Source: Mumia xiangluensis (GTDB lineage Bacteria > Actinomycetota > Actinomycetes > Propionibacteriales > Nocardioidaceae). Taken from it: 64,000 nucleotides of DNA. The notes under the pieces were generated by a model. The model worked only from the letters and a program-made list of their open reading frames with translations, did no database searches and was not told the origin of the DNA. Each line of letters starts with the position of its first letter. The stretch's first letter is position 1. The translations under genes were made by a program, and so were the position numbers. The stretch covers positions 248,001 through 312,000 of the forward strand of contig NZ_WJYO01000004.1 of NCBI RefSeq assembly GCF_010994095.1, given 5' to 3'. Positions 30,299 through 54,103 of the stretch are shown piece by piece.

Positions 30299-30305
30299 GT
30301 GCGTC

Positions 30306-30360
30306 GGTGCGTGAGTGGTCACGGCGATCGCAGCCGTGACCACTCACGCACCAACGGGTG
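30306..30360. repeat. Extragenic palindrome, family A copy 1
   Basis: Perfect 20-bp arms (GGTGCGTGAGTGGTCACGGC at 30306-30325 and its complement at 30333-30352) around a 7-base loop, followed by AACGGGTG. It sits between the convergent copB and desaturase genes. A second copy at 38148 keeps the flanks and changes three stem pairs in a compensated way. It may act as a bidirectional terminator or a REP-like element. Confidence 0.85.
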
Positions 30361-38129: not shown

Positions 38130-38147
38130 GCCGCAGCCACCTCCGTC

Positions 38148-38202
38148 GGTGCGCCCGTGGTCACTGTGGTGGTTCCGGTGACCACGGGCGCACCAACGGG
38201 TG
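38148..38202. repeat. Extragenic palindrome, family A copy 2
   Basis: 17-bp perfect arms GGTGCGCCCGTGGTCAC (38148-38164) and its complement (38178-38194) around a 13-base loop, then AACGGGTG. Compared with copy 1 at 30306, the stem changes TGA/TCA to CCC/GGG while the flanking bases stay the same. It again lies between convergent genes. Confidence 0.85.
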
Positions 38203-53037: not shown

Positions 53038-53095
53038 CGACGTACGTCTCGACATTTCCGTAGCCGGCGCGACGGGAATGTCGAGACGTACGTCG
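53038..53095. repeat. Extragenic palindrome, family B copy 1
   Basis: 24-bp arms (53038-53061 and 53072-53095) with one T-G wobble and a 10-base loop. The outer stem CGACGTACGTCTCGACAT is shared with copy 2 at 54048. It lies between purH and the DUF559 nuclease gene. Confidence 0.88.
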
Positions 53096-53159
53096 CAGCG
53101 CGCGGTTATCCACACGGCGCAGGTGCGGTCTCGGCGCGGGATCGACCAGCATCGGCGCC

Positions 53160-54041
53160 ATGCTCGAACGACAGCGCGGCGTCTTGACGACGGCACAGGC
53201 GAACGCGCTGTTCGGTGAGGGCCGGGTCCGGGCCCAGGTCGCCGCCGAGCGATGGCAACGACCGTTCCGAGGTGTCGTCGTCACGCACAACGGTCCCCTC
53301 TCGCCGGACCAGCTCGTCTGGGCGCGGCTGCTCGCGTGCGCGCCGGGCTCGGTGCTCGGTGGCCTCAGCGCCGCCTCGTACGACGGGTTGCGCGGGTTCG
53401 CCGTCGAGGAGACGCACGTCGTCCTTCCGGACGCCGCGCGTCGCCCGGCGATCGAGGGGGTCGTCCCGCACTGGAGCGTCTACCTCGACGAGCGCGACGT
53501 GCACCCGGCGCGGCACCCGCCCCGTACGAGGATCGCGCGCAGCCTGGTCGACGCGGCGAGCTGGTCCGAGCGCGAAAGGCGGGCCAGAGCGATCATCCTG
53601 GCGGGAGCGCAGCAAGGACTCGTCCGGACACCGCACCTGCGTGATGCCCTGAGTCGCCGCGGCAGCTGCCGCCATCGCGCGCTGATCGTCGAGTCGTACC
53701 TCGATGCCGCGGGCGGGATCCAGTCGTTGCCCGAACGCGACTTCGAGACCATCCGCCGCGCCCTGCACCTTCCTGTCCCGACCCGGCAGCGTCCGGTCCG
53801 ACGCGGCGACGGGCGCTACTACCTCGACGTCGCCTGGGACGAGTACGACCTCGCGGTCGAGGTCCACGGGATCCCGCACATGCGCGTCATCCAGTGGGAC
53901 GCGGACCTGATGCGGGCGAACGAGATCGTGATCGGCGGGCCGAAGCTGCTGATCTTCAGCTCGTACGCGATCCGGCGCCAGCGCGCCGCGGTCTCCGACC
54001 AGCTCGCACGGCTGTTCGCGAATGCGGGGTGGCGCGGGTGA
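53160..54041 (+). CDS. DUF559-type endonuclease with AbiEi-like N-terminus
   Basis: 293 residues. The N-terminal winged-helix region (RGVLTTAQANALFGEGRVRA, then WQRPFRGVVVT) resembles the AbiEi antitoxin family. The C-terminal 110 residues match DUF559/Vsr-like PD-(D/E)XK nucleases: Glu192 or Glu195 in LPERDFE, Asp223 in YYLDVAWDE, Glu234 in LAVEVHG and His240. The site is complete, so it may cut DNA. Many paralogues exist in actinobacteria with no known role. Two related long palindromes flank it. CAGCAT and 7 bases precede the ATG. No toxin gene is adjacent. Confidence 0.82.
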   Translation: MLERQRGVLTTAQANALFGEGRVRAQVAAERWQRPFRGVVVTHNGPLSPDQLVWARLLACAPGSVLGGLSAASYDGLRGFAVEETHVVLPDAARRPAIEGVVPHWSVYLDERDVHPARHPPRTRIARSLVDAASWSERERRARAIILAGAQQGLVRTPHLRDALSRRGSCRHRALIVESYLDAAGGIQSLPERDFETIRRALHLPVPTRQRPVRRGDGRYYLDVAWDEYDLAVEVHGIPHMRVIQWDADLMRANEIVIGGPKLLIFSSYAIRRQRAAVSDQLARLFANAGWRG

Positions 54042-54047
54042 ACCACC

Positions 54048-54103
54048 GACGTACGTCTCGACATCTCCGTCGCGTCGGCAGCGGAGATGTCGAGACGTGC
54101 GTC
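54048..54103. repeat. Extragenic palindrome, family B copy 2
   Basis: 22-bp arms (54048-54069 and 54082-54103) with one T-G wobble and a 12-base loop. The inner stem differs from copy 1 by a compensated pair (T-A to C-G) and a wobble repaired to T-A. It begins 7 bases after the nuclease gene and touches the stop codon of the convergent ybaK-like gene. Confidence 0.88.

Follow-up and report, generated by a model that had tools for sequence, protein, structure and literature searches.

The closest described systems are the 'REPtrons', in which the gene of a repetitive extragenic palindromic (REP)-associated tyrosine transposase (RAYT) lies between cognate palindromes whose copies are dispersed between genes (PMC2817692, PMC8266576, PMC3733652). 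Tandem palindrome doublets also occur, and the palindrome type follows the phylogeny of the enzyme (PMC2817692, PMC8266576). In this study, we analysed a 64,000-nucleotide stretch of the Mumia xiangluensis genome (contig NZ_WJYO01000004.1, positions 248,001 to 312,000; the window), in which a nuclease gene lies between two matching palindromes. The gene and its homologues resemble REPtrons in each of these features, but the protein combines an AbiEi fold with a Vsr-like nuclease, whereas RAYT proteins are HUH tyrosine transposases of the IS200/IS605 kind, and the members described here were found in actinobacteria, the only named relatives being from Aeromicrobium and Intrasporangium. The left-flank consensus of three palindrome types showed no conserved GTAG tag, which marks REP/RAYT systems, nor was the tag present beside the window palindromes. 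We consider it probable that the gene and its two palindromes belong to a widespread REP/RAYT-like family in which a nuclease replaces the HUH transposase, and in which the protein would recognise its own palindrome and keep a cognate pair together with a dispersed set. By sequence comparison between genomes, the family has matched palindrome pairs, gene-specific types, dispersed copies, compensating arm changes in the largest type, presence/absence differences and joint type differences between species.

Other known systems share single features with this locus. CGTC-tagged REPs are likewise dispersed palindromes; they were described mainly from alpha-Proteobacteria, carry an unpaired CGTC motif at one end and had no known dedicated enzyme (PMC3733652), whereas both window palindromes have their CGTC ends base-paired. 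The type IV toxin-antitoxin protein AbiEi (S. agalactiae AbiEi, 6y8q) has the fold of the first part of the protein; the window gene differs from it by its nuclease domain and by having no adjoining AbiEii toxin gene, the adjacent genes being purH and a tRNA_edit gene. Compared with the Vsr endonuclease (1cw0) and the homing endonuclease I-Bth0305I (3r3p), the protein differs in its fusion to an AbiEi module and in its position between genes and palindromes. Among open-licence PMC papers, we found none that ties DUF559 or AbiEi-nuclease genes to palindromes, and the open-licence literature searched links no enzyme class other than RAYT to REP elements. A 2025 REP survey includes actinobacterial genomes (PMC12306157); a term search of its main text gave no mention of RAYT, endonuclease or DUF.

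A nuclease gene between two matching palindromes

The locus consists of the following features.

53038..53095, no strand: upstream palindrome of the CTCGACAT type, 9 bp past the purH stop codon and 64 bp ahead of the nuclease start codon; one of six genomic CTCGACAT cores
53160..54041, + strand: nuclease gene, 293 aa; residues 1-184 AbiEi fold, residues 186-292 Vsr/I-Bth0305I-like (DUF559, PD-(D/E)XK) nuclease domain
54048..54103, no strand: downstream palindrome of the same type as the upstream one, 6 bp past the nuclease stop codon, with a 2-bp overlap with the end of the convergent ybaK-like open reading frame (ORF)

An earlier note on this DNA had described the gene as framed by two related hairpins, and both hairpins proved to be real. 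Their 27-nt arms lie at 53038-53064/53069-53095 (93% complementary) and 54043-54069/54082-54108 (89% complementary) and head the 37 inverted repeats of the window, in which the third 27-nt pair was just 74% complementary; by stem score they ranked first and third, with a hairpin at 30302-30356 second. When folded as single-stranded DNA (+ strand), the upstream and downstream palindromes gave z = -6.8 and -6.1, and none of 200 shuffles folded as well. The upstream palindrome matched the reverse complement of the downstream one at 86% over 63 bp. The core CGTCTCGACAT...ATGTCGAGACG (11-bp arm pattern) occurred at two sites in the 4.62-Mb genome, both flanking the nuclease gene, and the reversed-pattern control at none; the shorter core CTCGACAT...ATGTCGAG, always 38 bp here, had six genomic copies, four of them solo. 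The compensated inner pair reported earlier exists (T-A in the upstream palindrome, C-G in the downstream one), but it is not the sole difference, as each stem also holds one wobble pair. Rfam gave no match in the window, and a known RNA family was rejected.

The reading frame of the nuclease gene is open, and it is the sole gene between the hairpins. The domain assignment was made from a PADLOC AbiEi match (residues 3-171, 8.6e-13) and a structure model, in which the two parts matched the AbiEi fold and the Vsr/I-Bth0305I catalytic-domain fold; it was not made from Pfam DUF559, which scored 12.5 bits, under the 20.6-bit cut-off. Residues E192, Q210, D223, E234, G237, H240 and R252 were invariant in 71 homologues. 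The preceding gene, purH, is read in the same direction, and the following one, a YbaK-like tRNA_edit gene, is convergent. No transposase was present among the five Pfam families matched by 71 family members. No plasmid record matched the nuclease and the one matching phage record covered the nuclease part only, so that a plasmid- or phage-borne gene was rejected. A paralogue in the same genome (G000:C4:347831-348703, 73% identical) is likewise enclosed by two hairpins, which have a sequence of their own, and we therefore surveyed homologues more widely.

Matched flanks occur across homologues

We searched 61 genomes of the bacterial family, in which G000 is the window's genome and G000 to G005 make up the genus, with a profile built from 11 proteins. 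Homologues were found in 50 of the 61 genomes, and 94 near full-length loci were taken, of which 93 were counted, one being without two usable flanks. A pair was called matched when the upstream and downstream flanks (~220 bp) of one gene gave a local score of at least 34. The results showed matched flanks in 77 of 93 homologues, compared with 33 of 2944 mismatched pairs, in which the two flanks came from different genomes, while 4 of 92 outer-flank control pairs from the same loci reached 34. The matched segments were palindromic, with a median self-reverse-complement score of 44 versus 20 inside genes and a score of at least 36 in 51 of 77 versus 8 of 77. Two frame-broken homologues (L256 in G036, L265 in G022) and a partial gene (L260) also had similar hairpins on both sides. 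Matched pairs thus outlive the gene for a time, as in the two frame-broken cases.

A scan regardless of gene identity covered 559 kb of the genus, made up of the window and 26 stretches and holding 171 ORFs of 200-430 aa, and 400 kb of a distant genome with 120 ORFs. In the genus, six ORFs reached 34 and five exceeded 60; the sixth, at 35, was phosphorylase-like by reading of its translation. In the distant genome, no ORF of 120 scored at least 40, and the six at 34-36 represent background. All five strongly matched ORFs of the 291 scanned were nucleases of this kind, the window gene and its paralogue having been known beforehand. The other three belong to another DUF559 subfamily (Pfam DUF559 3.6e-6 to 2e-7), and the single protein compared from that subfamily shares 24% identity with the window protein.

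In the wider class, 108 of 148 genomes carried homologues, with up to 18 per genome; 13 of these 108 genomes belong to the same bacterial family. At the cut-off of 34, matched flanks were present at 12 of 20 loci in a first class sample (11 of 19 among those outside the family; mismatched pairs 0 of 380) and at 13 of 18 further loci in a second (mismatched pairs 7 of 306), from which two of 20 stretches were excluded, one ending at a contig end and one without an upstream flank. At a cut-off of 40, the two samples gave 11/19 and 12/18. In a many-copy family (f18), where 40 was the cut-off, 17 of 20 own pairs but also 46 of 380 mismatched pairs reached it; at 60 the counts were 16 of 20 and 23 of 380. 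The mismatched pairs score high because many of these palindromes have the outer arm CATGATCAT in common and differ inside. Other families of the class therefore have the same matched-flank pattern, less cleanly. In f18 (L337-L356), the constant outer arm CATGATCAT of many palindromes is combined with a gene-specific inner arm, an arrangement suggesting that recognition has a common and a specific part. In a many-copy genome of another family (G169), 61-bp palindromes GTTGATCATGGAGAAGGTCGGC...GCCGACCTTCTCCATGATCAAC occurred in four copies in 400 kb (L319:18478, L329:11115, L331:2632, L334:1010), and none of the G169 genes fetched had these palindromes beside it.

Palindrome types follow the protein

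The sharing of palindrome types was analysed after leaving out the 16 loci below the matched-flank threshold. Palindromes were shared by 0 of 2120 gene pairs at protein identities below 40%, by 1.8% of 333 pairs at 40-50%, by 6.6% of 411 at 50-60%, by 13.8% of 58 at 60-80%, and by three of four pairs above 80%. The Mantel rank correlation between type and protein was 0.18, a value reached by none of 500 permutations. Homologues in the same genome had a common type in 2% of 50 pairs. Since palindromes are common mainly to similar proteins and rarely within one genome, the type turns over fast, with two matching copies kept per gene.

The rarity of shared palindromes within a genome led us to reject a copying transposon. 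The interpretation in the earlier note was supported in part, for the link between nuclease and palindromes. The gene seems not to be a freely copying cassette, given the same-genome pairs and the plasmid and phage searches. The winged helix as the setter of palindrome type led nowhere (partial correlation 0.06). A link between the middle segment of the protein and the type is only a lead, as the shared-type pairs come from few clades.

Solo copies are dispersed between genes

Strict copies of the GTCATACG...CGTATGAC type were present in 17 of 61 genomes, with 1 to 40 each and 175 in all (the genes' own flanks included), and the reversed-pattern controls gave 0 in all 61. All nine genomes with a gene called GTCATACG type had strict copies, versus 8 of 52 others (p=1.4e-6); at a minimum of three strict copies, the proportions were 7 of 9 and 6 of 52 (p=1.2e-4). 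Within the genus (G000 to G005), the counts were 6, 9, 0, 0, 1 and 0 for the CTCGACAT type and 1, 0, 3, 3, 9 and 0 for the ACCCGACGT type, which fit the gene types only in part. In 53 GTCATACG elements, compensation kept the inner stem positions paired at 0.69 versus 0.46, the highest of 200 controls being 0.52; in 14 ACCCGACGT elements, the excess was only just above the highest control. Tandem doublets were found in G057, which has four. In G012, two identical 40-bp GTCATACG palindromes lie 1.46 kb apart (L259:1654-3157, C38) around an ORF named dehydrogenase-like from its translation, not around a nuclease gene. Two further window hairpins (30302-30356 and 38143-38199, with 24- and 22-bp arms, 7.8 kb apart) have the motifs CGTTGGTGCG and GTGGTCAC in common and are possibly a second dispersed palindrome family.

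With a crude ORF caller, positions were assigned to 82 elements from three types, those at gene flanks among them: 72 lay between ORFs (39 convergent, 29 tandem and 4 divergent), 8 inside ORFs and 2 in unknown positions. Background gaps at the same loci were 9 convergent, 37 tandem and 25 divergent (n=71). The 39 elements between convergent genes could terminate or stabilise transcripts, as expected if the palindromes were ordinary bidirectional terminators that resemble each other by chance. We regard this explanation, which the earlier note had raised, as scarcely credible: it fails to account for flanks that match gene by gene and types that track the protein, the palindrome families are strict with zero controls, and strong matching among the scanned ORFs was confined to this kind of nuclease. 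No terminator with a T run was found around the nuclease gene, and plain terminators were rejected on this ground and on the gene-specific matching.

Orthologous sites differ between sister species

At the purH-ybaK locus, the nuclease gene is present in G000, G002 and G004, and absent from G003 with both neighbours kept, so that one relative has the empty site that the earlier note had proposed to look for. In G005, the gene is absent after purH and the ybaK-like gene is gone too; in G001, another gene follows purH. In the G004 locus, the downstream palindrome is missing. In the tree, G000 groups with G002 and G003 with G004, and gene loss in G003 and G005 is therefore at least as likely as separate gains. 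G003 and G004 are 90% identical over the purH region. Among nine G004 solo sites that could be paired with G003, four were common to both and five were found in G004 only, one of these opposite a clean shorter gap. No place in G004 orthologous to the G003-only elements turned up in the stretches retrieved, and several G004 elements were likewise unpaired.

A homing-like cassette, in which the nuclease would cut solo palindromes and the gene between its two palindromes would be copied into them, is improbable. Homologues of one genome hardly ever share a palindrome, so that no gene copying within genomes was seen; the empty G003 site holds no solo palindrome of these types, and the presence of the gene in the sister G004 makes loss from G003 an equally or more likely history; and the gene lies between intact palindromes, interrupting neither.

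The sister species G000 and G002 differ in palindrome type at four places, the two flanks of the nuclease gene next to purH and two distant solo sites, and in each species all four are of its own gene's type. This type is GGACTCGACATTCC-like in G000 and GGACCCGACGTTCC-like in G002; the distant sites are C4:358821 (57 kb away) and C6:20134 (on another contig). At C4:358821, G003 and G004 likewise have the ACCCGACGT type, G005 has a degenerate form and G001 has none. For gene pairs at orthologous sites, of which 6 of 20 were dropped where one gene had no matched pair, the within-gene mean similarity exceeded the cross-species upstream-downstream mean in 13 of 14; some genes enter more than one pair, so that the pairs are not independent. 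In G003 (L208:9240-9351) and G002 (L227:18195-18307), a palindrome of another type, CGGTGA..GGTCCCACC..GTGGGACCAC..CTCACCG, occupies the gaps orthologous to G004 GTCATACG elements. Different palindrome families seem to reuse these gaps.

The main rival is a coevolving regulator, because cleavage is a step that we infer. In this explanation, the palindromes are sites of an AbiEi-type regulator that represses itself and acts at scattered sites, the nuclease serves defence or repair, and site and protein coevolve without mobility. The AbiEi fold is present, AbiEi-type proteins autoregulate through inverted repeats in promoters (PMC7319586), and a regulator with its operators would produce the observed coevolution of type and protein. 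However, both the positions and the copy numbers speak against it. Each pair has one palindrome downstream of the gene, the elements avoid divergent (promoter) gaps (4/82 versus 25/71 background gaps), and an operator set would hardly be expected to reach 40 copies or to differ in presence and absence between close species. We consider a regulator unlikely.

Discussion

The link between nuclease and palindromes proposed in the earlier note was supported by comparison, through the matched flanks, the types common mainly to similar proteins, the dispersed copies and the empty purH-ybaK site. That note had named two outcomes that would speak against it, palindromes scattered evenly at gene ends with no link to DUF559 genes and a gene always present between purH and ybaK in relatives without hairpins; neither occurred.

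In the REP/RAYT-like family that we favour, the AbiEi part would bind the palindrome, the nuclease would nick or cut it, perhaps when it is extruded as a hairpin, and repair from another copy would spread and homogenise the palindromes. Palindrome recognition with cleavage is the simplest reading, because AbiEi proteins bind inverted repeats (PMC7319586) and a Vsr-like nuclease is here joined to that module. A comparable role, carried out with HUH chemistry, is ascribed to RAYT proteins (PMC2817692, PMC8266576). Tentatively, the family may also be a second, independently evolved REP solution, in which a homing-endonuclease-like AbiEi-nuclease fusion spreads and rewrites its own palindromes, and in which a shift in specificity would be followed by conversion of the dispersed copies through cutting and recombinational repair. 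Such conversion to a new type is suggested by the coordinated difference between G000 and G002 at four sites.

Several observations weigh against a REP/RAYT-like family. At the threshold, 16 of 93 family genes had no matched pair, and in f18 many mismatched pairs also scored high. The Mantel correlation is small, and the winged-helix segment fails to explain type sharing, the partial correlation being 0.21 for the middle segment. Genes and copies do not always coincide: eight of the 52 genomes not called GTCATACG-gene carriers hold strict copies, although one of the eight, G051 with 40 copies, has a partial gene with matching flanks; G010 was called positive through its own flank only, which is of another geometry; strict copies are absent from G018 despite its two genes with related GTCATA palindromes; and no gene of the respective type was seen in G001, with nine CTCGACAT copies, or in G003, with three ACCCGACGT copies. 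The window's own type has only four solo copies, and compensation was not clear for it (15 CTCGACAT elements, within controls). No target-site duplication was seen.

If a REP/RAYT-like family is the right reading, a non-HUH enzyme with its own palindromes would be a second class of REP enzyme and would give DUF559-type nucleases a role. With homologues in most of the class genomes searched, the family would also offer many matched enzyme-site pairs of differing specificity that are open to direct testing.
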